A stretch of 23,681 nucleotides of DNA. Origin: Undibacterium sp. (GTDB lineage: Bacteria > Pseudomonadota > Gammaproteobacteria > Burkholderiales > Burkholderiaceae). This document shows, in pieces, positions 1,451 to 23,670 of the stretch. The notes beneath the pieces are model-generated. The model was not told the DNA's origin. It saw only the letters and a program-made list of their open reading frames with translations, and did no database searches. Each line of letters starts with the position of its first letter. Position 1 is the first letter of the stretch. Made by a program: the position numbers and the translations under genes. Location of the stretch: assembly GCA_014376575.1 (NCBI GenBank), contig JACMRF010000016.1, positions 1 to 23,681 on the forward strand, written 5' to 3'.

Positions 1451-2212
1451 TTATTTTACCGAGGACAAACGGCTCTTTGCCGCTTGCGCCGCTTCAGTAT
1501 CAGGAAATTGCTTCATCACCGCTTCCAGCGTTTTCTTACTGGCAGGCTTGTCTTTTAATTCGAGCTGGCACGCTGCGATATTAAGCATGGCATCTGGCGT
1601 CTTTGGATGCTCTGCATAATTCTTTACCAATGTCTGCAATGACAAAATCGTATTCTTGCAATCACGCTGAGCATAGTAGGAATTGCCCAGCCAATATTGG
1701 GCAGAACCGGCAAACACAGATTGAGAATAATTGGCGGTAAAACTGGAGAAAGCGGCACTCGCATTTTTATAATCAGCCGCTTTAAACAAGGACATGGCCA
1801 CATCGTAGGCGCGTTGCTCATTGACTTCTACCGTCGCTTCCTTGCCATCGACAGTCACACGCTTGGGTTCTATTTTACGCAGGCGGTTATCAAGATCGAC
1901 ATAAAAATCCTGCTGACGACGCTGAGTGTTCGCGAGGTCATTCGTCAACACTTCTATCTGCCCGCGCAACTTGGCGACTTCGGCACGCAATTGTTCATTT
2001 TGATTCGATAAGTCAAGTGCGCTACTCTTGTCGGCCTTGGTATCGAGTTTGGCGTCTAACTTATTGCTCACGGCATCGATCTTGGTACGCACGTCAAGAA
2101 TCGCTCTGCGCGCCTCGTCATCGTCGAATATTCCTGCGAATGTCACCGAAGGGAGCAGCACAAATGCCATGGTTCCGGCAACCATGTATTTGGCGAAAGT
2201 AGATGATTTCAT
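1451..2212 (-). CDS. cpoB: Cell division coordinator CpoB (YbgF)
   Basis: A periplasmic protein of the Tol-Pal system that in Escherichia coli links outer-membrane constriction to peptidoglycan synthesis (PBP1B/LpoB). The 253 residues comprise a signal peptide (about 1-26, ending SVTFA), the conserved GIFDDDEARRAI start of the mature protein, an N-terminal trimerising coiled coil (about 36-115) and C-terminal tetratricopeptide-like repeats (about 130-250, with YWLGNSYYAQRD and AMLNIAACQLEL). Domain order and length are normal for the family. It is the last gene of the tol-pal cluster and is separated from pal by 145 bp containing two stem-loops. A weak ribosome binding site at the ATG suggests modest translation. 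The tRNA-Lys promoter begins just after its stop codon. Confidence 0.95.
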   Translation of the reverse strand: MKSSTFAKYMVAGTMAFVLLPSVTFAGIFDDDEARRAILDVRTKIDAVSNKLDAKLDTKADKSSALDLSNQNEQLRAEVAKLRGQIEVLTNDLANTQRRQQDFYVDLDNRLRKIEPKRVTVDGKEATVEVNEQRAYDVAMSLFKAADYKNASAAFSSFTANYSQSVFAGSAQYWLGNSYYAQRDCKNTILSLQTLVKNYAEHPKTPDAMLNIAACQLELKDKPASKKTLEAVMKQFPDTEAAQAAKSRLSSVK

Positions 2213-2357: not shown

Positions 2358-2894
2358 TTACTGATAAACGATATCAGCACGACGGTTCTCAGCCCATGAC
2401 GCTTCATCGCTACCCGTTGCTTTTGGCTTTTCTTTACCCAAGGAGACGGCTTCTACTTGTGACTCAGGTACGCTTAACAAAGCCAATGCTTTACGCACGG
2501 CTTCTGCACGCTTCTGACCCAAAGCCAGATTGTATTCGCGGCCGCCGCGCTCATCGGTATTACCTTGAATCAAAATCTTGCGCGCTTTGTTGGCAACAAG
2601 ATATTTGGCATGCGCCTCAACCAGTGATTTGAATTCATCTTTTACGACATAGCTATCGTAGTCAAAATACACGCTACGCTTTGCCAAAACGCCTTTTGGA
2701 TCGTTCAAAGGGTCAACCGCAGCGGCTGTCACTGTATTCACCGCACGCGTATCCGCAGGCACGACAGCAGTTTTTGCAGATTTATCTTCGACCGGTGGAG
2801 TAGGCTCCAGCTTGACGGGTGTGCTGCAAGCTGTGATCAGTGCGATGCTGGAAATCAGCAATGCCAGTGTTTTAGATGATGACGTAAAACGCAT
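2358..2894 (-). CDS. pal: Peptidoglycan-associated lipoprotein Pal
   Basis: An outer-membrane lipoprotein that binds peptidoglycan and TolB, anchoring the outer membrane during division. The 178 residues start with a lipoprotein signal peptide whose lipobox is ITAC, with the lipidated cysteine at residue 23. A Pro-rich linker runs to about 68. The OmpA_C-type peptidoglycan-binding domain fills the rest, with SVYFDYD at 74-80 and the family hallmark NTDERGG at 112-118. The start ATG has a strong ribosome binding site (AGGAG, about 7 nt upstream), in keeping with an abundant lipoprotein. It follows tolB by 50 bp with a small hairpin in the gap. All features are standard and the identification is secure. 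Confidence 0.97.
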   Translation of the reverse strand: MRFTSSSKTLALLISSIALITACSTPVKLEPTPPVEDKSAKTAVVPADTRAVNTVTAAAVDPLNDPKGVLAKRSVYFDYDSYVVKDEFKSLVEAHAKYLVANKARKILIQGNTDERGGREYNLALGQKRAEAVRKALALLSVPESQVEAVSLGKEKPKATGSDEASWAENRRADIVYQ

Positions 2895-2944: not shown

Positions 2945-4228
2945 TTATTTCATAAAAGGACCCCATGTGGGCTCCCGAATATCTCCGGCTTGCACCGTCA
3001 ATTTTTGCTTCACTTTGCCATCGATAGACACCACGGCCAATGAACCACGTCGACCTGATTCGGTGGCATACATGATGTAGCGCCCATTGGGTGAAAAGCT
3101 AGGCGATTCGTCCTTGGCTGTATCAGATAAACGCTGCTCTTGGCCACTTGCCAAGTCCAGCGAATACAATTGAAACTTGCCATCACGACGCGAAATATAA
3201 GCCAAAGTCTTACCATCTGGCGAAATACGGGGTGTTATATTATAACTCCCTCCAAAAGTGATCCGTTTTGCTTCGCCACCGGTGGAGCTCATGCGGTAGA
3301 TTTGCGGACCGCCGCTACGGTCACTTAAGAAATAAATAAACTGCCCATCGGCCGAAAACTGCGGCTCGGTATCAATGCCGCTGGTCGTTGTCAGGCGTTG
3401 CAATCCACTACCATTAGCGTTGACCATATAAATTTGTGTTAGGCCATCGCGCGATAGAGAAACAGCAAGTTTGCTACCATCAGCAGACCAAGCCGGAGCA
3501 GAATTGCTTCCTTTGTAATTGGCAACGACGGTACGCTCACGGGTAATCAAATTTTGCACATATACCACTGGCTTTTTGGCTTCAAATGAGACATAGGCAA
3601 CCTTGGTGCCATCTGGCGACCAAGCGGGTGAAATGATGGGTTCATTTGATCGCAACGCCACCTGTATGCCTTCACCATCCGCATCGGCGATTTCCAGTCT
3701 GTACTCTGAACCTGCCTTAGTGACATAAGCAACACGGGTCGAAAAAGCACCGCGCACGCCGATCAATTTTTCGTAAATATCATCAGCGATTTTATGCGCG
3801 GTTAAACGGGTGCTAGAGGGAAGTGCCGCTAAGGAAAACCCTGATAAAGTCGATGACTTCATTGTGTCGAGTAATTTGTAACGCACATCAAAACGGCCGT
3901 CGCTTAGTTTCTGTACACTCCCCACGACCAAGGCTTCCGCACCACGTGATTTCCACTCACCGAAATTGACCTGACTAGTCTCAGAAATGACCGTGCCGAC
4001 TTCAATTATCTTAAAGTAACCACTGCGCGCCAAATCGTCTTTAATAATGGCCGACACCAGCTGCGGCGCCAGGCCTTCATCCGCAAAAGTAGCAATTGCA
4101 ATCGGCAACTGATTTGAGCCAACACCAGACACCTCAACTCTTAATTGTGCCTGCGCTGCGCCCGCCACGATCAAACCTAGCAATGCAGCTGTTTTTGCAG
4201 CTTGCTTAAACAGGAAAATAATTTTCAT
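2945..4228 (-). CDS. tolB: Tol-Pal system beta-propeller protein TolB
   Basis: A periplasmic protein that binds Pal and the TolA C-terminal domain and transmits the Tol motor signal. The product is 427 residues from the ATG at 4228. A TTG one codon further upstream (4231) is a less likely start. It has a signal peptide (about 1-27, ending AAQAQ), an N-terminal alpha/beta TolB_N domain (about 30-165) and a C-terminal six-bladed propeller. At least five PD40-type repeats are readable, such as PAWSPDGTKVAYVS, PAWSADGSKLAVS, PQFSADGQFIYFLS, PRISPDGKTLAYIS and PSFSPNGRYIMYAT. Its start lies 6 bp after the tolA stop, so tolA and tolB are clearly co-transcribed. Length and architecture are typical. 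Confidence 0.97.
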   Translation of the reverse strand: MKIIFLFKQAAKTAALLGLIVAGAAQAQLRVEVSGVGSNQLPIAIATFADEGLAPQLVSAIIKDDLARSGYFKIIEVGTVISETSQVNFGEWKSRGAEALVVGSVQKLSDGRFDVRYKLLDTMKSSTLSGFSLAALPSSTRLTAHKIADDIYEKLIGVRGAFSTRVAYVTKAGSEYRLEIADADGEGIQVALRSNEPIISPAWSPDGTKVAYVSFEAKKPVVYVQNLITRERTVVANYKGSNSAPAWSADGSKLAVSLSRDGLTQIYMVNANGSGLQRLTTTSGIDTEPQFSADGQFIYFLSDRSGGPQIYRMSSTGGEAKRITFGGSYNITPRISPDGKTLAYISRRDGKFQLYSLDLASGQEQRLSDTAKDESPSFSPNGRYIMYATESGRRGSLAVVSIDGKVKQKLTVQAGDIREPTWGPFMK

Positions 4229-4234
4229 CAAATT

Positions 4235-5134: not shown

Positions 5135-5188
5135 GGCCTTGTTTGAGCGGTCAATAGCCGCTTAGTTCCATCTACACATGATTTGAGT

Positions 5189-5217
5189 TTTATCAAAAAC
5201 ATTATTTTAAGCATCAA
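5189..5217 (-). promoter_or_regulatory. Candidate sigma70 promoter upstream of tolA
   Basis: On the minus strand TTGATG (5212-5217) and GATAAA (5189-5194) are separated by 17 bp, about 55 bp upstream of the tolA ATG. Each hexamer matches 4 of 6 consensus bases. The site sits in the only large gap (166 bp) between tamB and the rest of the tol genes, where an internal promoter would be useful. No terminator was seen in this gap. Confidence 0.35.
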
Positions 5218-5300
5218 TATTTACTGCATCACGGCGGACACAGCTTATTAACGATCGCTCACTACGGAGCAAAATTATAAGCTTCATTCATGACACCACA

Positions 5301-8300
5301 TCAATGAAATGAGAATGTGTAATACGCATCGACCGACCCTTCCGTCCCCTTACGTCCAATAATACTAATGCGGCGCGTCAACTGCCAGCTTAATTTAAGC
5401 GCTCCACTCGCGTCCGACAAACCTCGCTCTACCGACAAAACCAAACCTGGCCTCAAGCGTTTTCCTATGCTGACAACTTGATCACCGGAAGACGAACCCA
5501 CTGCAGTTGCACCAGCCACGGTCTGCCCGGGCAATTTGGAGCTGCCCGCATTCTCAGCAGCACCGACGGAAAATTCGTCGAAACCCAGCCCTTGGACAAT
5601 ATCACGCGGAATATTGCGGCCGTTGTCGTCACCGAAAATTGCGCCTGCAGCGGACATGAGTACGCTAGTTTGGTTACTCGCAATATCCGCCGTGCCCGTA
5701 CCAAGCACTAACCAGGAAAGTTTTTCTGCATCCGGCACACTGGGCTCTGAAACCAAACGCACTTGCGACGAGGAAACAGTACCAGACACCTCCACACCCG
5801 CCTCTACTTCCAGCCCTTTTCTCAACGCAAGGATATTCAAACCGGGGTTGCCGGGAGAGCCCTGAAAAGTCAATATTCCGCGCTCTATCGCTAATTTTTG
5901 TCCATAGCCTTCATATATGCCATCTTCAGTGCGTATGGTGCCGCTTGCTTGCAGGGGAGAACCATCGTTGCTACGCAAACGGACTGTTCCTGTCAGCGTA
6001 GTATCGAGTCCGCTACCAACAAATACAAACTGAGGCCCCATGTCGAGCGTGACATCGAGTCGCGTTTTCAAGCCCTTTTTACCGGCATCCGCGCTGCGCT
6101 CTTGTGGGTTTTCCGGCGGCGCAGTTTTCTTGCTTGAGCGAGTGACGACAACATCGCTAGATAAACTTGGCGGCGGAGATTTAGGCAATTTAAAATAAGC
6201 GCCATCGGCGATTAATTTACCCGTTAATGCCCACACTTTACTATTTTCAGTAATGCTCGTATCACCACTAACGACAAACCATCGATCTTTGCGTTGCAAC
6301 AACGGAAATTTCTGAAATTGTGCTTGTATGTTGCCACTTTGTTTGGCGATATCAATTTCGCCTGAGGCGTGAAATTCACCCGTTTGCCCCACCCAATTTA
6401 GGTCACGAAATTTTGTATGCTTAGGCATGACAGAAACTTTATTACTAAATTGCAGTTGATTGAGCTTGAGGTGACTTTCATCAATCACGGCACTGAGGCT
6501 TCCATTTGGTAACAAAATCCCTTCTGAAGCAAATGCCACTTCCAGTTCGCGACCTTCAATTTGCGCCAGGTATTGTGGTGTGCCGATCGTACCTTTGAGT
6601 GTCGCGTTAACTTTCAGCTTACCTTTCAATGCCAATCCTGGATTTATCCATGGCCCCAACCACTGCAGATCCGACACCTCCGCTTGTAATTCGCCCGCCA
6701 ATGCGGCGTCACTCGGCAAGGTCCACTGCTCAGCGGTTTTTCTTAGTTGCGAATTACTTTTAAATCGCCAATTTCCTAGGCGTGCGCCAGTGGCCGTGAG
6801 GTCAACCGCGACCCGCTCTGTATCAGTACCGGCAACCAGACCACCTAAGGAAAGATTTAACTGTAAATCACTCATCTCCAACGGCAATGCCTGCCCGGTA
6901 CCATCGACATCATTAACACGAATATCACCACTCTGTCGCCGTACATGCACCGCACCGCTGACATTATCTTTCAGTTGCAGATCCCAATCTGCGTTGACGA
7001 GCAAATCACCTTCAACAGCATATTGCGGCTTGATAAGATTTGCTACATCAATCAATTTCACATCCGACATTTGTCCGCGGGTTTTAATATTCCCCGGCAT
7101 CCACTCAAATTGCTCCAAAATAATTTTACCCAAACTGCTACTAAATTGCGCACGACCCAGATGTACATTGGAGGCCGTGGCGTCAATCTGCATTGGCGCT
7201 AACAGCTTAATATCTTGCTTACCATTCAGACTTAAACGCGCCACTTGCCCGCTCCATTGCAGACCTTGGCCGCTGGCTGGTTTCAGACTACCTGAAGCAT
7301 TCAAAACGAATTGACGTGCCGCAGTTAAACGCGCATTCATTTCTATCAGGTGGGCATCACGATTACCCTTAATGCTCAAACTCATCTGTTGCGCAAGGAG
7401 TGGCATTTTCGTCGATTTATTTTGCTCAAGCACCTGGTTGTCCGCATGCGCAGTAATTTGCCTGTTTTCATCTGGCTGAATCATATTCGCCCGGACTCCG
7501 CGCACCACGACATCTGCATTAAATGCATCGTTTTGCTCACTTCCCACATCGAACGTTGCAGAGAGATCATCGAGCTCAATTTGTTTCTCTACACCTATCG
7601 CTTGCGAGCTAAGACGCAGTTTTCCTGCTGGTTTGGCGAGAGTCCCGGTCAAGTGCGCCTCGGCTTGCATACTGCCCGTCAGCTTAAGGTCTAGTAAAGG
7701 CGAGAATGCGGACATGTTCGGCGCATCAAGATTAAGCGTCAACCCTTCGTTACCGCGGCCCAAGACACCAATTGCATCCACTCTATTTTTACCCCAATGC
7801 ACATTTAATTTGCGCACTGACAAGGCCATATCCTGCTGCCAAGTGGCATCTACCACGCCCGATATTGCCTGACCCGCATAGTCCCCCTCCAAACGCGGCA
7901 ACTGTACATTGAGCAGCAGCTTTGGAAGAATTTGTCCGGACAAAACAATTTCAGTATCGATATGCCCTGCAGGTGTTGTTAACCAGCGAGATGGATCAAA
8001 CTTTTTCAATTCTCCTTGAAAATTAAATTTTTTCTGTTCAGAAAAATTAATCTCACCCTTACCGAGCATACGAGAATCCGCAGCGCTTAATTCAAATCTG
8101 GACAGATGTAAGCTGGAATTATTTTTATCAGTTTCATCGCCACTAATTTGATAATTCGCCTCCACCGCCAAGCTGGCACGAGGATCTTTTAATTGAGCTT
8201 GAAAGCGGAGTAATGTACTTGCTCGCCGCTGTGCGTCGTTGACGATGCTGGTATCAGCATGGATAGTGCCGGCAATTTTTGTGGGTTGAATACGCTGATC

Positions 8301-9638
8301 AATTTGCGCCAGATTGATGCCGCTTAAGTTGAAATGAGAATCAACTAATGGCAAGCCAATTGCCGGAAGATTGATGTTTGCCTGGCCTGTTATTTTCCCA
8401 TTACCAGAAAGCAGCATACTGGTATTTTTCAAAAGAATGACACTATCTGACCATTGCAAATCCGACTGCAAAGAAAGAATAGGTAAGGCATTCTGATCAA
8501 TACGGCCGGGCTTGGTATTTTCTATTTCTATCCTGCCAGCCAAGCTATTTTGAGTTGGCGTTGGCGTTGTTTGTTGTGATGTTATTTTATTCGCTTGACT
8601 CGCCATCAACGCAGAGCTTGTTTGAGCATGTAAATTTGCCCGCACTTGCAAATTTGCCTTCGGCGCATCGGCAGAAAAATCTGCCGGATTCAACCCGTCT
8701 ATATTCGCCTGAAGGGCACGCAAAGGCTGCGCTGAAAACGCCATGATCACGGCACTAAAACCCCCTTGCAGCTGCGGTACCGCTGTCGTCGCAGCTGAGG
8801 GAGTGGTTTTGCCGCCAGCCTCAGTGTTTGCTTTGGCCGAGATGCTCAATTGCGCCAGCGAACCTTGCAAGTGCCCGCTCACCCCTAGGCTGGGTATCGC
8901 CTTATTGGCTTGCCCACGATAATTAAATGTCCCTTGCAGTGCAAACGGTTGAGCACTGGCGATCTGTCCTTGCAACTGCAACCGCCCCCAGGGCGAAGTT
9001 AATTCACCGTTAAGTGCATGCTGCAATTGACTTGAATCCAACTGCGCCGTGATCGCGCTCAGCGTCAATGTGGGCAATTCACTACCATCATTCTGTAGGG
9101 TAAAAATACTCAGCCGGCCTAGTGCTGCATGACTGACCTTGACCGTAACAGGCAAACGTAAATCGGCAGGTAATTGCGCCGGAGTTGGATCGGCGGCACT
9201 GGCGATATGCAAGGAACTCATTTCCAGCGTGTCGACATTAAGCTGACCAAAAATCAAAGCACGTGGTTGCCATATTAATTTGACGCCACTCGCGCGTAAT
9301 TTCGTTTTTTGATTTTGATACGTTAGCTCGTCTATCCGGATTTCATCGGCAAGTCTGCCGCTTAGTCCAGACGTTTTCAGCGCACCGCCACTGAGCCATT
9401 GCACTAATTTAAATGTGGTTTGTGTTCCTGCCTGGGTTCCGCACAACCACGTCACGACCAGCGCCATAAGAATGAAAAGAAGAGTGAGTGCGACTAAAAG
9501 TTTCACAACAGATTTTGTTGTTCTGGCAGTGCGCGACATTGGCGCAACTGACTCCGGCGACATCTCAATCGGTGCCATTATTTTTTCTTCTGATAACGTG
9601 TTCTTGGGAATGTCCGGCAAACTCATTTTATTGGTCAT
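5301..9638 (-). CDS. tamB: Translocation and assembly module protein TamB
   Basis: A giant AsmA-like protein anchored in the inner membrane, whose beta-rich groove spans the periplasm to TamA. The family is implicated in autotransporter/outer-membrane protein assembly and in phospholipid transport to the outer membrane. The 1445 residues are somewhat longer than Escherichia coli TamB (1259). A cytoplasmic tail of about 42 residues precedes one transmembrane helix (about 43-66, ending WLCG). A long repetitive beta-strand region follows, then the conserved C-terminal TamB/DUF490 domain (roughly the last 350 residues, with TGTVRLRSNDGSPLQASGTI and YEGYGQKLAIERGILTF). It ends in YYTFSFH, a barrel-like terminus typical of the family. 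The ATG at 9638 follows the tamA stop by 5 bp; a second ATG at 9626 is possible. Its position inside the tol operon is unusual. Confidence 0.95.
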   Translation of the reverse strand: MTNKMSLPDIPKNTLSEEKIMAPIEMSPESVAPMSRTARTTKSVVKLLVALTLLFILMALVVTWLCGTQAGTQTTFKLVQWLSGGALKTSGLSGRLADEIRIDELTYQNQKTKLRASGVKLIWQPRALIFGQLNVDTLEMSSLHIASAADPTPAQLPADLRLPVTVKVSHAALGRLSIFTLQNDGSELPTLTLSAITAQLDSSQLQHALNGELTSPWGRLQLQGQIASAQPFALQGTFNYRGQANKAIPSLGVSGHLQGSLAQLSISAKANTEAGGKTTPSAATTAVPQLQGGFSAVIMAFSAQPLRALQANIDGLNPADFSADAPKANLQVRANLHAQTSSALMASQANKITSQQTTPTPTQNSLAGRIEIENTKPGRIDQNALPILSLQSDLQWSDSVILLKNTSMLLSGNGKITGQANINLPAIGLPLVDSHFNLSGINLAQIDQRIQPTKIAGTIHADTSIVNDAQRRASTLLRFQAQLKDPRASLAVEANYQISGDETDKNNSSLHLSRFELSAADSRMLGKGEINFSEQKKFNFQGELKKFDPSRWLTTPAGHIDTEIVLSGQILPKLLLNVQLPRLEGDYAGQAISGVVDATWQQDMALSVRKLNVHWGKNRVDAIGVLGRGNEGLTLNLDAPNMSAFSPLLDLKLTGSMQAEAHLTGTLAKPAGKLRLSSQAIGVEKQIELDDLSATFDVGSEQNDAFNADVVVRGVRANMIQPDENRQITAHADNQVLEQNKSTKMPLLAQQMSLSIKGNRDAHLIEMNARLTAARQFVLNASGSLKPASGQGLQWSGQVARLSLNGKQDIKLLAPMQIDATASNVHLGRAQFSSSLGKIILEQFEWMPGNIKTRGQMSDVKLIDVANLIKPQYAVEGDLLVNADWDLQLKDNVSGAVHVRRQSGDIRVNDVDGTGQALPLEMSDLQLNLSLGGLVAGTDTERVAVDLTATGARLGNWRFKSNSQLRKTAEQWTLPSDAALAGELQAEVSDLQWLGPWINPGLALKGKLKVNATLKGTIGTPQYLAQIEGRELEVAFASEGILLPNGSLSAVIDESHLKLNQLQFSNKVSVMPKHTKFRDLNWVGQTGEFHASGEIDIAKQSGNIQAQFQKFPLLQRKDRWFVVSGDTSITENSKVWALTGKLIADGAYFKLPKSPPPSLSSDVVVTRSSKKTAPPENPQERSADAGKKGLKTRLDVTLDMGPQFVFVGSGLDTTLTGTVRLRSNDGSPLQASGTIRTEDGIYEGYGQKLAIERGILTFQGSPGNPGLNILALRKGLEVEAGVEVSGTVSSSQVRLVSEPSVPDAEKLSWLVLGTGTADIASNQTSVLMSAAGAIFGDDNGRNIPRDIVQGLGFDEFSVGAAENAGSSKLPGQTVAGATAVGSSSGDQVVSIGKRLRPGLVLSVERGLSDASGALKLSWQLTRRISIIGRKGTEGSVDAYYTFSFH

Positions 9639-9643
9639 CCGGT

Positions 9644-11533
9644 TTAAAATGCGATAGCGATGGAAAAATCCAGACGGAATTTTTTCACTTGTTTGCCATA
9701 CGCCAAATCTAATGCGATCGGGCCTGCAGGTGTCTTATATCGAGCACCTAAGCCGAATCCCTGTTTGGCATTAAAGTTGCGCCAGGAGTCTGCCGCATCG
9801 CCAATATCAACGAAGGCAGCGCCCCCCAGATTACCCTCAAACCAATGTACATATTCCGCACTGCCTATCGCCATTACGCTACCACCAGAGACACCGCCAG
9901 CGTGTTGTATGCCCAAGCTTTGGTAGGCATAGCCGCGCACTGTGGTGCTGCCGCCGGTACGAAACAAATAATCTTCGGGGATACCACTAACACTCGCAGA
10001 AAACATTTTTCCTGCCTCCGCGCGTAAGACGATGCTGTCCTGTTTCGCGACCGGTATCCAGCGCTGGTATTTGCCATATAAACGAATAAATCGTTGGTCT
10101 GAAACTAAAGCTTTATCTGACACGGCCACATCAATTTGGGCGATCTGCCCTTTACGTGGAGCGAAACTATTATCGACATCGCGCCAGGTCCAGCCAACAG
10201 TGCCGACCAATGCGCGACTAAAACGCTCACGCTCACCATCGAGTTGATTTTTTTCCAGCGTCAGATTGATGCCAAAGCGCTGCTCTAAATGACCACGGGT
10301 GTTAGTACGCTTAACGCCGATGGCGGTACGCGTTTGCAACAATCCCGACACGTCTACGCTATCAAATAACACCCCGACCGAATCTAATTGATCACGTTCT
10401 AGCGGCGGCAAATATATATCGGCGTAAGCGAGTTGGCGTTTCTGTTCAAATCTGACGGCGCTATGTAAATCCCAGGCTTTTTCCAGCACATTGCGATCGC
10501 GGTACAAGACTTCGGTTCTAAAACCAGTATTGGTACTGTAACCAACTCCTAAAGCGAGATCGCGTGCTTTGCGCTCAACGACATTTACCTCAACGGGTAT
10601 GGCATCTGCTTTAACCGGATCTGGCTCGACACTGACTGCAACAGTAGAAAAATAAGCTGAATTTTGCAGCGCCCGTTGATAATCAAGCAAGCGTGTACGG
10701 GAATAAGGCTCACCTTTTTTAGGAGGATTAAATCGCTCCAGCAACGCCAAGGGATAACGCTGTAAACCACTCACGATCATCTCGCCCAAGACAAAAGCGG
10801 GACCGCTGTCTGCCTCCACTGCCAGTATCGCTGTGTGATTGTCTGCATCGATCGCAGCACTGCTATCGATGATGCTCGCGGCGGCGTAGCTGTCGGAACG
10901 CAAGCTTTCTGAGAGTTGCGTTTTTGCCCGCACCCACTCACTGTCTCGAAAAGGCTCTGCTGTTGACAAGGACCAATTTGCCACCAGACTATCGCGCCGT
11001 TCAACAGCGGCTACTTGCCCTAGCTTGACCGCATCTGCCAATGCGCCAGTGAATGTGAGATTAACATTTTGAATGAGCGTTCTGGGACCCGCATCAACAT
11101 TGACTAAAATGATACTGGCATTTTCAGTTTTTTTTTCAAAACTAATGACAGGTGAAAAATAACCTTCAGTCGACAATATGGAGTTAATGGCGTTACGCAA
11201 TTTACGCAATACGCCTGGAGTCAAGCTTTGCGCTTCCGCAGATGCAGTGAGTTCAGGTACATGTTGCTGCAATAAGCGCAACCACTCGCCCTTTGCCCGC
11301 CCAAGGCGAAATAAGCTGAGTTGAGAGGTGCTACTGACAAACAAGTCTTGCTCTTGCGCCTGTTCTGGTTCTGGTTCTGTGTAGTTAGCGTTAGCGTTAG
11401 TGCTGCCTGAAAGCGCAGTTGATTGGCTCGCGGCAGATACATCAGAGACAGGTGGCTCCAGTGCAAAACTTGCACCAACAAGCAAAGAAAAAATCACTCC
11501 TGACATATACCGAAAAAAACGTAAATAACTCAC
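9644..11533 (-). CDS. tamA: Outer-membrane assembly factor TamA (Omp85 family)
   Basis: An outer-membrane barrel of the Omp85/BamA superfamily and partner of TamB. The 629 residues (577 in Escherichia coli) comprise a signal peptide (about 1-25), a low-complexity acidic Glu/Pro/Gln-rich stretch (about 30-65), POTRA domains (to about 320) and a C-terminal 16-strand-type barrel. The barrel includes the superfamily STTVRGYAYQSLG lid-loop motif (near residue 530), AAFVDIGDA and a terminal phenylalanine in LDFSIAIAF. The start is GTG at 11533 and overlaps the tolR stop as GTGA, implying translational coupling to tolR. Two adjacent hexanucleotide repeat tracts encode the low-complexity stretch. TamA is distinguished from BamA by shorter length, linkage to tamB and the lack of five POTRA units. 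Confidence 0.95.
   Translation of the reverse strand: MSYLRFFRYMSGVIFSLLVGASFALEPPVSDVSAASQSTALSGSTNANANYTEPEPEQAQEQDLFVSSTSQLSLFRLGRAKGEWLRLLQQHVPELTASAEAQSLTPGVLRKLRNAINSILSTEGYFSPVISFEKKTENASIILVNVDAGPRTLIQNVNLTFTGALADAVKLGQVAAVERRDSLVANWSLSTAEPFRDSEWVRAKTQLSESLRSDSYAAASIIDSSAAIDADNHTAILAVEADSGPAFVLGEMIVSGLQRYPLALLERFNPPKKGEPYSRTRLLDYQRALQNSAYFSTVAVSVEPDPVKADAIPVEVNVVERKARDLALGVGYSTNTGFRTEVLYRDRNVLEKAWDLHSAVRFEQKRQLAYADIYLPPLERDQLDSVGVLFDSVDVSGLLQTRTAIGVKRTNTRGHLEQRFGINLTLEKNQLDGERERFSRALVGTVGWTWRDVDNSFAPRKGQIAQIDVAVSDKALVSDQRFIRLYGKYQRWIPVAKQDSIVLRAEAGKMFSASVSGIPEDYLFRTGGSTTVRGYAYQSLGIQHAGGVSGGSVMAIGSAEYVHWFEGNLGGAAFVDIGDAADSWRNFNAKQGFGLGARYKTPAGPIALDLAYGKQVKKFRLDFSIAIAF
11362..11400. repeat. 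Two adjacent hexanucleotide repeat tracts in tamA
   Basis: The plus strand reads three copies of gttctg (11362-11379), then nearly three copies of gttagc (11384-11400). On the tamA strand these encode the low-complexity linker between the signal peptide and the first POTRA domain. Because the unit is 6 bp, copy-number changes would keep the reading frame and only alter linker length. Confidence 0.6.
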
Positions 11534-11973
11534 TTGGTCGCCAGCCCTACCCGATTTATACCTAATTTTTTGGCTTCAGAAATAACTTGAATAACCTCGT
11601 CATATTTCATTTCCTTGTCTGCCGACACCAGCACAGATAATTCAGGTTTAGCTTCGTGATATTCACGTAGTTTTTGCATCAGTTGCTTGCGATCGACCGC
11701 TGTTTCTTTGGACTCCTGTTTACTATTGCCGTTGCTACTGCCCTTGCTGTTGAGACTGATCGTCGCAAAAGCATCAGGACTGAGTGCTATTTCAATATAG
11801 TCAGAAGGCGGTTGCGTGGATTGCCCGGCAGTCGGCAAATTAATCACGCTCGGGTTGGTCATCGGTGCTGCCACCATAAAGATCACGAGTAACACCAACA
11901 TCACATCGATGTAGGGTACGACGTTGATTTCGGCCTTAAATTTGCGCTTACGGTCGCCACGCAGATTGCTCAT
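11530..11973 (-). CDS. tolR: Tol system proton-channel subunit TolR
   Basis: An ExbD/TolR-family subunit of the TolQR proton-motive-force motor. The 147 residues have a short cytoplasmic N-terminus, one transmembrane helix (about 21-40, VVPYIDVMLVLLVIFMVAAP) carrying the essential aspartate at residue 23, and a periplasmic domain ending with EVIQVISEAKKLGINRVGLAT. A Ser/Asn/Lys-rich insertion (about 75-95, including GSSNGNSKQESKE) separates two periplasmic strands. It follows tolQ by 25 bp. Its stop codon overlaps the tamA GTG by 4 nt, so tamA rather than tolA is its immediate downstream partner. TolR rather than ExbD is chosen because ybgC-tolQ precede it and tolA-tolB-pal follow. Confidence 0.95.
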   Translation of the reverse strand: MSNLRGDRKRKFKAEINVVPYIDVMLVLLVIFMVAAPMTNPSVINLPTAGQSTQPPSDYIEIALSPDAFATISLNSKGSSNGNSKQESKETAVDRKQLMQKLREYHEAKPELSVLVSADKEMKYDEVIQVISEAKKLGINRVGLATK

Positions 11974-11998
11974 GCAGATTTATCCATTCTTAATATCA

Positions 11999-12694
11999 TT
12001 AGCGTGATTGTCTTTGCAAGATATTTGAAAACTCTTCAATGAAAGTTTCAAAATGGATCGCCAGCCTATCTATCTCGTGCGTATAACGGTTGTAAGCCAG
12101 CACCGCAGGAATAGCGGCAAATAAACCAATTGCGGTCGCAATCAGGGCTTCGGCAATACCTGGCGCTACCGCTGCCAGGGTTGCCTGCTGTACGTTAGCC
12201 AAACCACGAAACGCATTCATAATGCCCCACACGGTGCCAAATAAGCCGACATACGGTGAAACAGAACCCACCGAGGCTAGAAAAGACAAATGTGTTTCCA
12301 GCTCATCCATTTCACGCTGATATGATGCGCGCATTGCGCGGCGCGCGCCGTCTAACATGGCACCGGCATCTAGCGTGGTTTTAGTGGCGGCTTTCACTTT
12401 GTGGTATTCACTCATACCCGCTTCAAAAATGCGCTCCAGCGCCCCCGTCTTATCACGACTTGCGCGGCGATTTGTGACGGCCAACTGATATAACTCAACC
12501 AGGTTGCCGCCAGACCAGAAGTTCCGTTCGAACTCTTCTGTTTGAGCCCGGGCTCTTTTAATAGAAAACATTTTGCTAAAAATATAATTCCAGCTGGTGA
12601 GCGACACACCTAGCAGCAATAACATCACTAGCTGCACCAATATCGACGCATTGGTGATCAGGGTAATAAACGACAGGTCTTGGGTAACGGTCAT
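11999..12694 (-). CDS. tolQ: Tol system proton-channel subunit TolQ
   Basis: The MotA/TolQ/ExbB-family subunit that forms the proton channel with TolR and powers TolA. The 231 residues contain three membrane helices. The first is at about 16-36 (VQLVMLLLLGVSLTSW). The second lies in the conserved SVSPYVGLFGTVWGIMNAF segment (about 140-160). The third is in VAPGIAEALIATAIGLFAAIPAVLAYNRY (about 172-195). A cytoplasmic loop lies between helices 1 and 2. The signature GTVWGI and EALIATAIGL motifs are intact. The gene follows ybgC by 113 bp with a stem-loop in the gap, and precedes tolR by 25 bp. Identification as TolQ rather than ExbB rests on the surrounding genes. Confidence 0.96.
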   Translation of the reverse strand: MTVTQDLSFITLITNASILVQLVMLLLLGVSLTSWNYIFSKMFSIKRARAQTEEFERNFWSGGNLVELYQLAVTNRRASRDKTGALERIFEAGMSEYHKVKAATKTTLDAGAMLDGARRAMRASYQREMDELETHLSFLASVGSVSPYVGLFGTVWGIMNAFRGLANVQQATLAAVAPGIAEALIATAIGLFAAIPAVLAYNRYTHEIDRLAIHFETFIEEFSNILQRQSR

Positions 12695-12807: not shown

Positions 12808-13212
12808 TTATTCAGACTTAATCAGCTGCATAATTTGTTCAGGGATTGCGGTCGGTCTGACGCTCAGCGCACCAACGCAAGCGACTTTAATCTTGCCGCT
12901 AGCGAGTAACTGATCGCCGCGCCAGGCTTCCTGAACAAATTGTACCGAAGCACGACCCATTCTTTCGACCACAACCGTCAGTTTCAGTTCATCGTCCAAT
13001 CTCGCGGGTGCATGATACTCGACCGCAGTGGCTTTGACGACAAACATGCACTGATAATCCTGCACCATTTGCAGCTGACTGATACCTGCTGCGCGTAGCC
13101 ATTCCGTCCTGGCGCGCTCAAAAAATTTGAGATAATTTGCGTAGAAGACGATGCCGCCGGCATCGGTGTCTTCATAATAAACGCGAACTGACCAAGTAAA
13201 TTCTTGCAACAT
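12808..13212 (-). CDS. ybgC: Acyl-CoA thioesterase YbgC (hotdog fold)
   Basis: A cytoplasmic 4-hydroxybenzoyl-CoA thioesterase-like enzyme of 134 residues, the conserved first gene of tol-pal clusters. In other bacteria YbgC hydrolyses acyl-CoAs and has been linked to phospholipid metabolism. The family signature VYYEDTDAGGIVFYANYLKFFERAR (residues 11-35) is present, with the catalytic aspartate at about 17 in YEDTDAGG. The central helix and later strands (KATAVEYHAPARLDDEL, RASVQFVQEAW) fit a single hotdog domain. The start is ATG at 13212 with no strong ribosome binding site. The 105-bp gap upstream has a 12-bp palindrome but no clear promoter, so it could be transcribed with ydfG or from an unrecognised site. 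Confidence 0.94.
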   Translation of the reverse strand: MLQEFTWSVRVYYEDTDAGGIVFYANYLKFFERARTEWLRAAGISQLQMVQDYQCMFVVKATAVEYHAPARLDDELKLTVVVERMGRASVQFVQEAWRGDQLLASGKIKVACVGALSVRPTAIPEQIMQLIKSE

Positions 13213-14155: not shown

Positions 14156-14248
14156 GAACAGAGAACTTGCCCAAATTAGGTACATAACGTAAAATTTCGA
14201 GACCATTTCGTCTCACGTAACTGGCGAAAATGCCCAAATTCTCTGAAC
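14156..14248. repeat. Direct and inverted repeats around the glyA promoter
   Basis: The 10-bp sequence tgcccaaatt occurs at 14168-14177 and again at 14231-14240, exactly 63 bp apart, about six helical turns. Outside them, cagagaa (14159-14165) and ttctctg (14239-14245) form an inverted pair. The first copy overlaps the candidate -35 region. Paired binding by a looping regulator is possible, but no known site was recognised. Confidence 0.4.
14167..14195 (+). promoter_or_regulatory. Candidate sigma70 promoter for glyA
   Basis: TTGCCC (14167-14172) and TAAAAT (14190-14195) are separated by 17 bp. The -35 matches 4 of 6 and the -10 matches 5 of 6 consensus bases. Transcription would start near 14202, giving a long leader. 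Another start closer to the gene cannot be excluded. Confidence 0.45.
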
Positions 14249-14332
14249 AAGTGTTTTTGCGGCAAAAGATGGAGTTCCATCGTGAAGCGTGAGATTTGCA
14301 GAATCCTTATCAACAACTATTGATTCTAGCCG

Positions 14333-14377
14333 TGCGCCTGGGTAGCCTGATGGTAAGAGCGACTGAGGCTGCCCGCA
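14333..14377 (+). ncRNA. Structured 5' leader element of glyA (candidate cis-regulatory RNA)
   Basis: A 9-bp stem (gggtagcct 14340-14348 with aggctgccc 14366-14374, one G-U pair) closes a 17-nt purine-rich loop. Past a one-sided bulge it is extended by tgc/gca (14333-14335, 14375-14377). There is no U-tract, so it is not a terminator. The 5' arm could alternatively pair with the glyA ribosome binding site (AGGAACCCC, 14424-14432), which would make the two structures mutually exclusive. I do not recognise a known riboswitch class, and no glycine-riboswitch tandem aptamer is visible. Confidence 0.35.
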
Positions 14378-14433: not shown

Positions 14434-15684
14434 ATGTTTGCAAAAAATCATACTTTGGCTAATATCGATCCAGAAATTTTCGCCACTATCCAGAACGAAA
14501 ATCATCGTCAGGAAGAGCATATCGAGTTAATCGCTTCGGAAAATTACACCTCACCAGCCGTGATGGAAGCGCAAGGATCGCAACTGACGAACAAATACGC
14601 CGAAGGCTACCCCGGCAAACGTTACTACGGTGGTTGCGAGCACGTTGACGTTGTTGAGCAATTGGCAATTGACCGACTTAAGCAATTATTTGGTGCCAAT
14701 TTCGCCAATGTACAGCCCAATTCCGGCTCACAAGCCAACCAAGCTGTGTTTTTTGCCCTGCTCAATCCAGGCGACACCATCATGGGCATGTCACTCGCTG
14801 AAGGTGGACACCTGACACACGGTATGCCTTTGAACATGTCGGGCAAATGGTTTAACGTCGTCTCTTACGGCCTCAATGCGCAAGAAGATATCGATTACGA
14901 TGCCATGGAAAAACTGGCGCGTGAAACCAAACCCAAACTGATCATCGCCGGTGCTTCTGCCTTTTCGTTGCGTATTGATTTCGAGCGTTTTTCTAAAATC
15001 GCCAAAGAAGTCGGCGCCTACTTCATGGTCGACATGGCGCACTACTCTGGCCTGATTGCCGCAGGTGTCTACCCTAACCCGGTACCGTTCGCCGATGTCG
15101 TCACCTCCACCACACACAAGAGCTTGCGCGGCCCACGCGGCGGCATCATCCTAAGCAATGATGAAGCCATCGCCAAAAAAATCAATTCAGCGATTTTCCC
15201 TGGTATACAAGGCGGCCCGTTGATGCATGTGATCGCCGGTAAAGCGGTCGCCTTCAAAGAAGCGCTCAGCCCTGAGTTCAAATCATACCAAGAGCAAGTC
15301 GTCAAGAATGCTGCCGCGCTGGCCAATACTTTGATCGAACGCGGTCTGCGCATTGTCTCTGGCCGTACCGAGTCTCACGTCATGCTGGTTGACTTACGCC
15401 CTAAAGGCCTGACAGGCAAAGAAGCCGAAGCCATCCTCGGCTCGGCTCACATGACCTGCAACAAAAACGGCATCCCAAATGACCCACAAAAACCCATGAT
15501 TACTTCTGGCATCCGCCTCGGTAGCCCGGCATTCACTACCCGCGGCTTCAAGGAAGCAGAAGCCGTTAAAGTTGGTCATTTGATCGCGGATGTTTTAGAT
15601 AATCCTAACGATGCAGCGACTATCGAAAGGGTGAAAGCTGAAGTTAAAAAACTGACCGCCGCCTTCCCCGTCTACGCCGCCTAA
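14434..15684 (+). CDS. glyA: Serine hydroxymethyltransferase
   Basis: A PLP-dependent cytosolic enzyme that converts serine and tetrahydrofolate to glycine and 5,10-methylene-tetrahydrofolate, the main source of one-carbon units. The 416 residues match the usual bacterial length (417 in Escherichia coli). The Schiff-base lysine is K229 in [14 protein letters not shown]. Other conserved segments are [39 protein letters not shown] and [14 protein letters not shown]. The ATG at 14434 has AGGA about 6 nt upstream. The leader upstream is unusually long and structured. A strong terminator follows the gene, and nrdR lies 203 bp downstream on the same strand. Confidence 0.98.
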
Positions 15685-16409: not shown

Positions 16410-16865
16410 TTATCGCCAGCATTCAGCAGAAATTGCAGCGCCTGCACCGGTATTGTTCCTCGCTGCAAAATTATTCAGCGTAAAGGTACCACAGCGATCA
16501 CTTGTCATCGAATTTGCCGGTGTTGCCGTCAGCGTGTAGCTAGATTGCACCGGTAGTGCCTGAGGAATAATGACAACTGCGATGTTATACATGACCGACG
16601 TGCCCGTAGCAGAACGCGGTGAGACCAATACAGGCAATACTGGCGCTGTTCCAGCCAGATTTTGGTCGTAGCGATTGTTTTCTGTATAAAACCTTTCCAT
16701 AAATTGCGCATTCTCAGTCAAGACAGACTTCACATCCGCCCTCCTGCTTTTTGCAACATTCTCTTGGTAACTCGGAAAAGCAACCGCGGAAATAATACCC
16801 AAGATGGCCACTACTATCATTAGCTCAATCAAGGTAAAACCGCGCACTGCATATTGATTATTCAT
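16410..16865 (-). CDS. pilE: Type IV minor pilin PilE
   Basis: A type IV pilin-like protein of 151 residues, last gene of the minor pilin operon. The prepilin leader is short (MNNQYAVRG), with cleavage expected between G9 and F10 ([24 protein letters not shown]) and glutamate at +5 present. The globular domain ends with a Cys pair (in DRCGTF and AECWR) that can form the C-terminal D-region disulfide. The ATG at 16865 has a ribosome binding site (GGGTG). It starts 22 bp after the pilY1 stop, so it is in the same operon. In Pseudomonas aeruginosa, PilE is a minor pilin that bridges the priming complex to the major pilin. It is too divergent from PilA to be called the major pilin. Confidence 0.9.
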
Positions 16866-16887
16866 ATCACCCTATCATTTATATAAA

Positions 16888-19800
16888 TTAGTCTTTACGT
16901 AATATTTGACGCCACAAACGCATAGACGGAATTTTTGTCAAATTAAGATTCTCACCAGTATCAGTACAGACGTTTTGGGCATTGCATTGCTTCTTCGGAA
17001 GTTTGCCCGCCGAATCTACCGAATAAACTTTGATGTTCTTCCCACGCAAAATTGTTTGACCAAAAGTCAATGCTCCCGTTTTTCCACTGACACGCGTATC
17101 AGTCGTATCGACCTTATTATCACCATTGGTGTCAAGTATATTGCCCGTTGATGCACCACCAGTTAAAGGATTAAATACTATCAAGCTCGATTTGCCATCG
17201 GTAACACAGGGATCAGTTGAACTACCCGGAATCACCGTTGTATAAGCCACTTCGTTGTACACCACTTCTGGATCAGTCGTGACGCGCTCACCGACATTTT
17301 TATCGAGATTGAAGTACCAACCTCTTTTTGTCGTCCAGTCAATTGTGTTGTTGCTCAACAAAACCAAATTAGCGGCAGGTACACTCAGCGTTTGCTGAAC
17401 TAACTGACTGAGACCAGTAACAGCTGTTGGCGTTACACCCGAAATACCACTTTTATCCCAGATCCCATAAATGGACTGCTGATCGGTCACGCCGGAATCG
17501 CCTGTTTCGAATAATTTACCGGTACCAAAGGTAACAATAAAACCACCGGCTGGGTGAGGATATAAGTCTGGCTGTGTCGTGATCGGTTGTTTTTTATTCA
17601 CCGGATCTGCCTGGAACAAACTACTTCCTGAAAAAGCAACCGTAGTACCTCCAGCAGCGAAATCAAACTTCCATAAGTTACCTTGCAAATCCCCTGCATA
17701 GGCAGCTTGAATCATTGAATTACTATCAATCACAAGCCGTGGCGTCGACAAGCCGTTTGGCGAAACCGAACTCCCTACGTTAGTATTTATTTTAGTCACA
17801 GCGCCGTTAGCTAAATTGACAATAAACAACATGGCTTTTTGAGAAGCGCTCCCGTAACCGTTGCCAAAAACCGCCACCCAATCGCCGTTGGGCGCCTTAC
17901 CAACCTGTGGATTGCCAATGGTATAACCGAGTTCGATCTCATTACTGGAATTAATTTCCCAAAGAACATCACTTGCACTGAAACTTGTGTTTGAAATATC
18001 CAGCGCAAAAATACCTTTACCACCGGCACCCGTCGTTCCGACCAACACGGTCTTCCAGCCACCAATATAGGCATCAGCAATAGTTGGCGTACCGTTAACA
18101 TAAAAATTATGTGAATAGACTGGGTTCGCAAGACTAGACAAATTAGCCATAACAGTTTTAGGCACATAGGCAAAACTCTCTGATCCGTCACTTGCATTAA
18201 ATGCATGCAACATACCATCGTTAGATCCAACGAAAACTCTACCCGCACGCGCCTTTTTTATCACACTATAAAAATTAAAATAGGAAGCAGCTTCAGCAGA
18301 GGGTAAATAACTATAACCCTCATCCTCACCCTGTGCATTATATTGTGGAGATGAACCAACCAAGTCACCCAATAAATTAGTACGGTCTCTGAAAACGCCG
18401 CCAGCTAATTTTTCTTTTGTTTTATCACCTTTAATATATTCAACAATGTCAGATCCTGTGACAGCACCACTAAATGGAATAGCGGCAGCAGCTGTCGTAA
18501 AAAAAGCTTGGTCACTCGACGCTAAATTAGCGAAACCAAAACTGACTCCTTTAGATGAGCTGTCTTTGTAACTAAAAATTTTTCTCGATGCTGGTGCTGG
18601 CCAAACAGTCGTGTAATCAATAATCCAGTCGTGCCCAGCTACAACACTCCCATCCGCTAGAAGACTTCGCTGCTCTAAAGCACCTGACCAATCTTTGGTG
18701 TTGTACGTTGAAATATAAATTTTTGTTCCCAACCGTACCGTGTTACTGGAAGTTCCAACAGCAGCCGCATCACCGGAACGGGCAGCAATATCATTGAGCG
18801 CATTACTTAATGAATCCGCAAATTGAGTTGGATTGTTTGCCTGATAAAATTGCCCATGCCCGTTGACAGCAGCATGGAATAAATCATCAATCTGATTCGC
18901 CGAACCATCAGGCCAGGTTTTAGCTCCTGTTTTCAACGCAGGCAAATCCGTAGTTGACAAGGTTCCGCTTACACCGACACCAACAGTGTACTGAACAAGA
19001 TGTTGCCAAAACGCTGGATCGATACCCGAACTGGCAATGGGGACATTCTTTTTTGCGGGGGACCAATCTGGACGCAAATCATTGACCCAGTAATAGAATG
19101 CCACGTCAGCAAGTACATTTTTATAACTATCTGCAAAAGTTTTATCGATTGGTGTTGTGCTTACCCCCGCTTTGTCTGTATATGTAGCTCCATTAACATC
19201 GTACTTGTATTTAGACCCATCGGCTGACACCATAATTGACCCAGCCGTACCATCAATATTATTATTGGCGATAGCCGATTGCGCGGAAGAACTATTCCAA
19301 TATCCATCCGTCATCATAATATGATAATTTTGTCTACAAGAATATTGATCCGTCGCAGCAGACCCAGTCCCTGGTATATTTTGCCAAGGTCCATTGATTG
19401 TTTTATCACTAAAATACTGCCCCACTTGATCCATGGACTGTCTTAACGGTGTGTTGCTCGCGGGCATGGGATGCGTGTAGAAATTATTAAAAAAACTTGC
19501 TCGATTAGCTCCAGAAAAATCAGAAGTTACACCAGCAACGACTGTGCCAGATTTGTTGATTGCGCCAAAGCCAACACGAATATTTGTCGCTTGCTTGGCA
19601 AACGCGGCCCCAGCGCCACCACGGGCCATCAAAACACGTGAACGATAGTACTGAAACCAATTAGCAAAATTTTGTATCTCTTGTGCATAAGTACATGTTG
19701 CAGCTGCTGCGGCAGGAGGAGTAGCATTACAGTCAGAACGAGTCGCTATTCCGCCTACTTTTGGATACGTAACGACCGTAGATTTGATTTCAACTCGTGT

Positions 19801-20451
19801 ATAGCAGCCAAGCGTATTTAAACTCTGTGGGCTACACGTCGCCAATGTTGTGTCATAGTTAAAATATGTGGCGGGATAAAAATTTCTAGCTTCATTTTGT
19901 CTAGGAGCGCCATTATATTGAGTCCAATTAAGATTTCCCCATTTCGCACTTTGGACACTTGAAGTTAAATCTATCGGTGCCATCAACACGCCACCTGTTG
20001 GGGCAATCGGGTTAAACAGCGCAGCAGTAGGCGTCGCATTCGCCATTGGTGTTCCGGCTGAAGATACCCAAGGAATATAAGTGATTGTTGGATCATAGTA
20101 CAACCCATTTGTTTTGGAAGAACGATACTTGGCGATATCAATATGCATCGTATTCGATGTCCCAATACCATCGCCGAAACCCATCACTAGCGGGTAAGGA
20201 TTAGCTCCAGCTTGGTAAAGCCCAGTTGGCATTGGGAAGCCGCTATACGCAAATACCATTGCGTCTGGTACTGCTTCCCATTGCATAGAACCTGAATCGT
20301 CTAATGTGAAAAAAATGTTTGGTGGTACTGGCGTTTGCACAAGAGGCGGAAATTGTGAAATAGCAGCAAACGCAGAAAAAATACACAAACTCTGTAAAAC
20401 GATTGCTTGCATCAAAACATTCTTTAATGACCGAGTAAATTGTAGCTTCAT
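16888..20451 (-). CDS. pilY1: Type IV pilus tip adhesin PilY1
   Basis: A large secreted or tip-located protein that primes pilus assembly with the minor pilins and acts in adhesion and surface sensing. The product is 1187 residues from the ATG at 20451, which has a strong GTGAGGAT ribosome binding site. A TTG at 20472 overlapping the pilX stop is less likely. A signal peptide covers about 1-31. A VWA-like domain follows, with a DDSGSM metal-ion site at 51-56. The C-terminal Neisseria_PilC-type beta-propeller includes GRVFVGSNDGMLHAFNASDG. A calcium-loop motif DTNGDNKVDTTD lies at about 1107-1118. The gene looks intact, with no frameshift. It is the fifth gene of six and separates pilX from pilE. 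Confidence 0.95.
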   Translation of the reverse strand: MKLQFTRSLKNVLMQAIVLQSLCIFSAFAAISQFPPLVQTPVPPNIFFTLDDSGSMQWEAVPDAMVFAYSGFPMPTGLYQAGANPYPLVMGFGDGIGTSNTMHIDIAKYRSSKTNGLYYDPTITYIPWVSSAGTPMANATPTAALFNPIAPTGGVLMAPIDLTSSVQSAKWGNLNWTQYNGAPRQNEARNFYPATYFNYDTTLATCSPQSLNTLGCYTRVEIKSTVVTYPKVGGIATRSDCNATPPAAAAATCTYAQEIQNFANWFQYYRSRVLMARGGAGAAFAKQATNIRVGFGAINKSGTVVAGVTSDFSGANRASFFNNFYTHPMPASNTPLRQSMDQVGQYFSDKTINGPWQNIPGTGSAATDQYSCRQNYHIMMTDGYWNSSSAQSAIANNNIDGTAGSIMVSADGSKYKYDVNGATYTDKAGVSTTPIDKTFADSYKNVLADVAFYYWVNDLRPDWSPAKKNVPIASSGIDPAFWQHLVQYTVGVGVSGTLSTTDLPALKTGAKTWPDGSANQIDDLFHAAVNGHGQFYQANNPTQFADSLSNALNDIAARSGDAAAVGTSSNTVRLGTKIYISTYNTKDWSGALEQRSLLADGSVVAGHDWIIDYTTVWPAPASRKIFSYKDSSSKGVSFGFANLASSDQAFFTTAAAAIPFSGAVTGSDIVEYIKGDKTKEKLAGGVFRDRTNLLGDLVGSSPQYNAQGEDEGYSYLPSAEAASYFNFYSVIKKARAGRVFVGSNDGMLHAFNASDGSESFAYVPKTVMANLSSLANPVYSHNFYVNGTPTIADAYIGGWKTVLVGTTGAGGKGIFALDISNTSFSASDVLWEINSSNEIELGYTIGNPQVGKAPNGDWVAVFGNGYGSASQKAMLFIVNLANGAVTKINTNVGSSVSPNGLSTPRLVIDSNSMIQAAYAGDLQGNLWKFDFAAGGTTVAFSGSSLFQADPVNKKQPITTQPDLYPHPAGGFIVTFGTGKLFETGDSGVTDQQSIYGIWDKSGISGVTPTAVTGLSQLVQQTLSVPAANLVLLSNNTIDWTTKRGWYFNLDKNVGERVTTDPEVVYNEVAYTTVIPGSSTDPCVTDGKSSLIVFNPLTGGASTGNILDTNGDNKVDTTDTRVSGKTGALTFGQTILRGKNIKVYSVDSAGKLPKKQCNAQNVCTDTGENLNLTKIPSMRLWRQILRKD

Positions 20452-20468
20452 TTCATCCTCACTTAAAT

Positions 20469-22479: not shown

Positions 22480-22490
22480 CAAATCCTCAC

Positions 22491-23556: not shown

Positions 23557-23670
23557 GCCTGACGATGACCTACTTTCACACTGGTTGCAGCACTATCATT
23601 GGCGCGGAGTCGTTTCACGGTCCTGTTCGGGATGGGAAGGGGTGGTACCGACTTGCTATGGTCATCAGGC
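23557..23670 (-). rRNA. rrf: 5S ribosomal RNA
   Basis: The minus strand reads GCCTGATGACCATAGCAAG to GTAGGTCATCGTCAGGC, about 114 nt, with complementary ends forming helix I. The internal CCACCCCTTCCCATCCCGAA segment and CCGTGAAACGACTCCGCG are typical of betaproteobacterial 5S rRNA. It is transcribed leftward, so the 23S and 16S genes should lie beyond the right edge. A strong terminator follows at 23514-23547. Confidence 0.96.

Follow-up and report, generated by a model that had tools for sequence, protein, structure and literature searches.

The tamAB genes lie between tolR and tolA in the tol-pal locus of Undibacterium and a sister genus

Introduction

The Tol-Pal system of Proteobacteria is encoded by an operon with the canonical order ybgC-tolQ-tolR-tolA-tolB-pal-cpoB, and both its organization (PMC12204202) and its gene order (PMC7391070) are described as highly conserved. 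Here, we analyzed the tol-pal locus on a 23,681-nt stretch of DNA from Undibacterium sp. (contig JACMRF010000016.1, hereafter the window), where tamA and tamB, the genes of the TAM system, lie between tolR and tolA. The window has all seven tol-pal genes on one strand and in the same relative order as the canonical operon. Unlike in the canonical operon, tolR is separated from tolA by 6.2 kb of tamAB, and one subclade of the genus has tolA-tolB-pal-cpoB detached from the rest. Split tol-pal loci, with the halves of the operon likewise apart on the genome, have been described (PMC12204202). The splits named in that text, tolQRAB // pal-cpoB and tolQRA // tolB-pal-cpoB, keep tolQR with tolA, whereas here a whole genus keeps the Tol motor genes with the TAM genes and the cut falls between tolQR and tolA, leaving tamAB attached to the motor genes.

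The second system of reference is the tamA-tamB operon. As in that operon, tamA of the window is followed by tamB, 5 bp away, and the products are a POTRA/Omp85 protein (TamA) and a PF04357 protein (TamB). Unlike a standalone TAM operon, the genes are preceded by tolQR with an overlap, and both proteins score far below their NCBIfam cut-offs. Tol-Pal and ybgC have been linked to phospholipids (PMC7391070), and what drives lipids into AsmA-like bridges has been discussed and left unsettled (PMC10900882). In term searches, TamB was absent from the main text of PMC12204202, and words starting with Tol or TonB were absent from PMC12800296. The titles and abstract openings of the openly licensed literature searched contained no report of the tolR-tamAB arrangement.

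Results

Gene order and family assignments

The genes lie on the minus strand of the window in the order ydfG-ybgC-tolQ-tolR-tamA-tamB-tolA-tolB-pal-cpoB. The canonical tolQ-tolR-tolA-tolB-pal order is thus interrupted, with tamAB separating tolR from tolA. Open reading frames and family matches bear out a preliminary description of this DNA, which had placed tamA and tamB between tolR and tolA on one strand, with a 4-nt tolR/tamA overlap and 5 bp between tamA and tamB. The features of the locus are as follows.

12808-13212, minus strand: ybgC, tol-pal acyl-CoA thioesterase; TIGR02799, 166.9 bits, exceeding the cut-off of 141.35
11999-12694, minus strand: tolQ, Tol motor; TIGR02796, 281.7 bits, exceeding the cut-off of 221
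11530-11973, minus strand: tolR, Tol motor; TIGR02801, 117.2 bits, slightly below the cut-off of 127.3, full-length match
11530-11533, minus strand: overlap of the tolR stop and tamA start, 4 nt (GTGA)
9644-11533, minus strand: tamA, Omp85/POTRA outer-membrane TAM subunit; GTG start; PF07244 and PF01103
5301-9638, minus strand: tamB, inner-membrane-anchored AsmA-like TAM subunit; ATG start; PF04357, 156.5 bits
4235-5134, minus strand: tolA, force transducer; TIGR02794, 69.2 bits, exceeding the cut-off of 59.45; transmembrane-helix histidine present
2945-4231, minus strand: tolB; TIGR02800, 506.3 bits, exceeding the cut-off of 343.15
2358-2894, minus strand: pal; TIGR02802, 134.7 bits, exceeding the cut-off of 125.35
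1451-2212, minus strand: cpoB/ybgF; TIGR02795, 116.4 bits, exceeding the cut-off of 90.1

TolR also matches the solved TolR 9ddm (E 2.5e-14). TamA consists of a POTRA repeat and a C-terminal Omp85 barrel, and its best solved match is TamA rather than BamA (PDB 8us1, E 1.4e-33; 4c00, E 4.6e-28; BamA, E 1e-7). TamB has an N-terminal hydrophobic segment from residue 44, consistent with a membrane anchor, and the PF04357 domain at its C-terminus (residues 1084-1444); it matches the solved TamB 9xdc (E 4.1e-11). The equivalog scores are low for both proteins, at 229.8 bits for TamA (NF047950, cut-off 625) and 230.1 bits for TamB (NF047952, cut-off 825). None of 215 sampled family members reaches the TamA cut-off, and we therefore attribute the low scores to the scope of the models.

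Distribution of the tolR-tamA junction

tamA directly follows tolR in the window, in all 43 genomes of Undibacterium (the genus of U. pigrum), and in all five genomes of one sister genus. Both genes are seen in full in 42 of the 43; in the last (G026), the contig opens inside the final tolR codons, directly before tamA. An assembly artefact was rejected, as the identical junction is present in 48 genomes besides the window. A second tamAB copy was also rejected, as each genus genome has one TamA besides weaker BamA-type matches, with TamA broken up where the assembly is fragmented, which applies to a few genomes. The preliminary description had proposed a comparison of tol-pal neighbourhoods and had counted a lineage-wide arrangement lacking coordinated expression against its own reading; the comparison does find the arrangement to be lineage-wide.

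The spacing at this junction is tight. The nearest candidate tamA start lies no more than 33 nt past the tolR stop in 49 of 49 loci (48 measured, plus G026). A start at -4, as in the window, is available in 19 of the 48 measured loci, among them all five of the sister genus, and a start at either -4 or -1 in 23. The junctions of G006, G023 and G026 were read by eye and the others by script. A promoter would not fit between tolR and tamA, and therefore the tol promoter most likely also drives tamAB. As judged from sequence, tolR, tamA and tamB very probably share one transcript and are translationally coupled.

Outside these two genera, we did not find the same embedding in the family or phylum samples. 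We searched for TolQ using one genome per species and kept the best 80 of 592 loci. Five of these 80 (L001-L004 and L011) have tamAB after tolR, and all five belong to Undibacterium. Among the other 75, tolR and tolB lie 0.8-1.4 kb apart in all 71 loci where both could be placed, which leaves no room for tamAB. One sampled locus (L045) carries a Burkholderiales-like tol-pal operon in a record titled Mycobacteriaceae bacterium, which is probably mislabelled or contaminated.

In a wider sample of the GTDB family (215 genomes), tolQ and tamA adjoin outside Undibacterium only in G084, G110, G146, G159 and G171. These make up the whole of the sister genus and have the order tolQR-tamAB-tolA; four of the loci run on to cpoB, and the G171 contig stops soon after the tolA start. 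In about 161 further family members with both genes, the best tamA and tolQ places are never less than 45 kb apart on one contig. In a phylum sample of 190 genomes, 84 of the 99 genomes bearing TamA were comparable (TolQ was not listed for nine, and six were without TolQ), and the genes adjoin only in U. pigrum and in none of the 83 others. Family and phylum counts come from coordinates compared by eye at the best places only, and genes on different contigs may still adjoin. TamA lies 10-15 kb from TolQ in G304, G340, G331 and G332 (loci L232, L233, L234 and L235), with other genes between them, so these are not one operon.

Phylogeny of the embedded loci

We built a tree from nine joined proteins, excluding TamA and TamB. 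All 49 embedded rows form one clade (99/100, bootstrap/SH-aLRT), which divides into a group of 44 Undibacterium rows (100/99) and one of five sister-genus rows (100/100). On this tree, the closest genome to the window is G035, at 93% identity over the joined proteins. Therefore, a single insertion in the common ancestor suffices to explain the arrangement. A tree of TamA only again places the embedded rows in one clade, on a long stem, and this TamA may have come by transfer or by descent. The neighbours of tamAB vary widely in 20 other family loci, and no common ancestral site is apparent.

Separation of tolA-tolB-pal-cpoB from the motor genes

tolA comes next after tamB in 22 of the 43 genus genomes. 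In G027, the two genes are separated by 3.6 kb of DNA that carries an MBL-fold gene and a TetR-type gene, and the contig ends before the next gene can be seen in G023, G029 and G034. In the remaining 17 genomes, other genes follow tamB and tolA-tolB-pal-cpoB lies elsewhere, with tolQR still beside tamAB. In the nine split genomes with both genes on one contig, tolR and tolB are separated by ~107 kb to 1.9 Mb, and 16-kb stretches around the detached tolA contain no tolQ or tolR match above the script thresholds. The 17 split genomes group with G034 in a single clade (100/99), to which G027 is the next to attach (100/98); therefore, one separation explains all 17. Once the halves had parted, tamB acquired a new right-hand neighbour on several occasions, for example a gene for an M16 peptidase, a chemotaxis receptor or a dehydratase, and the tolR-tamA junction remained unchanged. 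In these genomes, the motor genes travel with TAM and not with the transducer TolA.

The tamB-tolA gap and a candidate promoter

The preliminary description lacked both the lineage-wide distribution above and the following two features of the window.

5135-5300, minus strand: tamB-tolA gap, 166 bp; no terminator-like site found on the minus strand
5274-5279, minus strand: TATAAT, -10-like, 145 nt upstream of tolA; no -35 element recognized

An exact TATAAT is present in the tamB-tolA gap or upstream of tolA in 39 of 41 Undibacterium loci, versus 3.5 expected from shuffles, counted over rows that are related and not independent. By class, it is found in 21 of 23 contiguous loci and in 18 of 18 split or insert loci. 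The motif is rare in other upstream regions of the scanned Undibacterium loci (8 in 46 kb), absent from the 250 bp ahead of the tolR stop, that is, before tamA (0/48), and found around the end of tolR in 1 of 72 non-embedded relatives. It is also absent before tolA in the sister genus (0/5), partly because most gaps there are short and leave little room. The nearest candidate tolA start lies -8 to 18 bp past tamB in four of the five sister-genus loci (156 in G171), 35-349 bp past it in contiguous Undibacterium (leaving aside G019 and G026), and ~3.6 kb past it in G027. Upstream of the detached tolA (L175 and other split loci), the stretch around TATAAT is strongly conserved; several members of the U. 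pigrum group have it as GCGGTTTATAATTTCAGCTGTTACAAC. It might bind a regulator in addition to polymerase.

Judged on these sequences, tolA does not look to be in the same transcription unit as tolR-tamAB in Undibacterium; only tolQR and tamAB look tightly co-transcribed. The co-transcription proposed in the preliminary description thus holds up for tolR-tamA-tamB, where the overlap and the starts within 33 nt favour it, and does not appear to extend to tolA, which has its own -10-like element and lies elsewhere in 17 genomes. For the same two reasons, the coupling is best described as one of TolQR with TAM and not of the whole Tol-Pal system with TAM.

Tests of a direct TolQR-TamAB link

TolA contacts the motor through a histidine in its transmembrane helix (PMC12204202). 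This histidine is present in all 14 TolA sequences shown, the window included (71 were extracted). The TamB helix has no histidine in the window or in most other sequences; it is scattered in a few and so is not conserved, although some starts are mis-set (e.g., G003, G019, L215 and L218) and the anchor is unseen there.

We also compared protein distances as partial correlations, corrected for the distances of ydfG, glyA and ybgC, which is a weak test. It used the 31 of 38 candidate Undibacterium rows that had all genes; G026, G028 and G032 had been excluded at the outset, and the candidates did not include G023, G029 or G034, where tolA is unseen. TolR gave 0.14 with TamA and 0.14 with TamB, versus 0.51 with TolA as the positive control. 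There was no signal with TolB (-0.17) or Pal (0.11) either. TamA gave 0.66 with TolA, 0.63 with Pal and 0.64 with TamB. TolQ and TamA correlate (0.56, near the 0.60 of TolQ and TolA) though TolR and TamA do not, perhaps through shared background. Parts of the table would allow a TolQ-TamA link, and the many raised gene pairs suggest such a background.

In its periplasmic part, TolR of most Undibacterium carries a Gly/Asn/Ser-rich loop that exceeds in length that of the sister genus and of most other aligned relatives. We rejected it as a sign of TamAB coupling, as the sister genus has the insertion without the long loop. Direct TolQR-TamAB coupling is not supported by these comparisons. The functional link raised in the preliminary description therefore stays a suggestion, to which the TamB histidine and TolR co-variation tests lent no support.

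Discussion

We propose that a single ancestral event put tamAB between tolR and tolA before Undibacterium and its sister genus diverged, as synteny and the tree indicate. Since then, the tol promoter would have driven tamAB as well as tolR, with tamA translationally coupled to tolR, as the overlap and spacing suggest. In Undibacterium, the tamB-tolA gap appears to have widened and, judging by the conserved TATAAT, tolA-tolB-pal-cpoB may have gained a promoter of its own there, so that at least part of the transcription of tolA and the following genes would begin there. Later, in one subclade, the second half of the operon came to lie elsewhere. This would leave two units, ybgC-tolQR-tamAB (motor and TAM) and tolA-tolB-pal-cpoB (transducer and tether). 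The likely effect is that, when the envelope grows or the cell divides, TAM would be co-expressed with the Tol motor and matched to it in dosage; we claim no physical coupling. We consider this explanation, taken as a whole, to be probable. The inherited arrangement suggests joint expression and alone does not demonstrate that both machines work together; dosage matching is the simplest benefit that we infer from it. The loci suggest a stepwise splitting of an operon, from tight insertion through a wider gap, a new promoter-like element and a 3.6-kb insert to separation. They also offer a natural experiment on two questions: whether TAM has to be matched in dosage to the Tol motor, and in what way TamB-type lipid bridges are linked with cell growth and division.

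Several observations weigh against this two-unit explanation. Transcripts could read through into tolA, as the window has no terminator-like site between tamB and tolA. A -35 element with at least 4 of 6 matches accompanies TATAAT in 5 of 39 loci, versus 8.4 expected by shuffling, and a general promoter scan of the window did not pick out the TATAAT at 5274-5279. With the relatedness of the rows, these points make the promoter before tolA a putative one. Furthermore, ydfG, which is functionally unrelated, precedes ybgC in 53 of the 72 non-embedded loci, and synteny kept without a shared function makes conservation of the tolR-tamA junction weak evidence of selection.

The last point bears on cause. 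tamAB may have landed behind tolR by chance and lost its own promoter, so that leaving would silence it; the shared transcript would then have no functional value. The arrangement arose only once, the unrelated ydfG-ybgC pair is equally stable within the clade, and the operon broke at its wide gap, as chance predicts. The low TolR-TamA and TolR-TamB correlations beside TolR-TolA in the 31 genomes, and the varied placement of tamAB in the 20 other family loci, fit as well. On the other hand, a chance landing in a functionally matched envelope operon would be unlikely, and the right edge of tamB changed neighbours repeatedly in the split clade, the tolR-tamA junction never. Because TamB lacks the histidine, TolR shows no co-variation and the unrelated ydfG was long kept, such an accident stays a serious rival, to which we give a little less than an even chance. 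It concerns only the cause and can be combined with the two-unit structure.

The structure itself would differ if the tol promoter, by way of tamAB, still supplied most transcripts of tolA and the genes after it, the whole being one nine-gene operon. All genes share a strand, the tamB-tolA gap has no terminator, and the close tolA starts in four of the five sister-genus loci make this probably true in that genus. For Undibacterium, we regard it as doubtful, given the TATAAT before tolA in nearly all loci, the window included, and the location of tolA elsewhere in 17 genomes.

Finally, TolQR might have two outputs here, driving TolA and also energizing or positioning the TamAB bridge, for instance at the septum for TAM-dependent lipid or protein delivery, with the gene order recording a partnership that outlived linkage to TolA; the retention of tolQR with tamAB in the 17 genomes and the outer-membrane lipid handling common to Tol-Pal (PMC7391070) and TamAB (PMC12800296) speak for this, but we judge it very improbable, as TamB lacks the conserved transmembrane histidine that TolA keeps, co-variation of TolR with TamA or TamB is absent, anterograde phospholipid transport has been called diffusive and not energy dependent (PMC11226057), and the comparison with other members of the family and phylum showed no TamA beside TolQ.

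Other features of the window

Two tRNA-Lys(TTT) genes follow cpoB on the minus strand (1123-1198 and 1322-1397), and a perfect sigma-70 consensus, TTGACA-17-TATAAT, precedes the pair at 1437-1409. On the plus strand, a ZMP/ZTP riboswitch (Rfam RF01750, 44.6 bits; 14207-14350) lies just upstream of glyA (14434-15684). A 5S rRNA gene is at the window end (23557-23669, minus strand), and an rRNA operon may adjoin. Type IV pilus genes occupy 16410-22539 on the minus strand, including a pilin-like gene (16410-16865), a gene for a PilC-type tip protein (16888-20472) and pilV (21940-22539).

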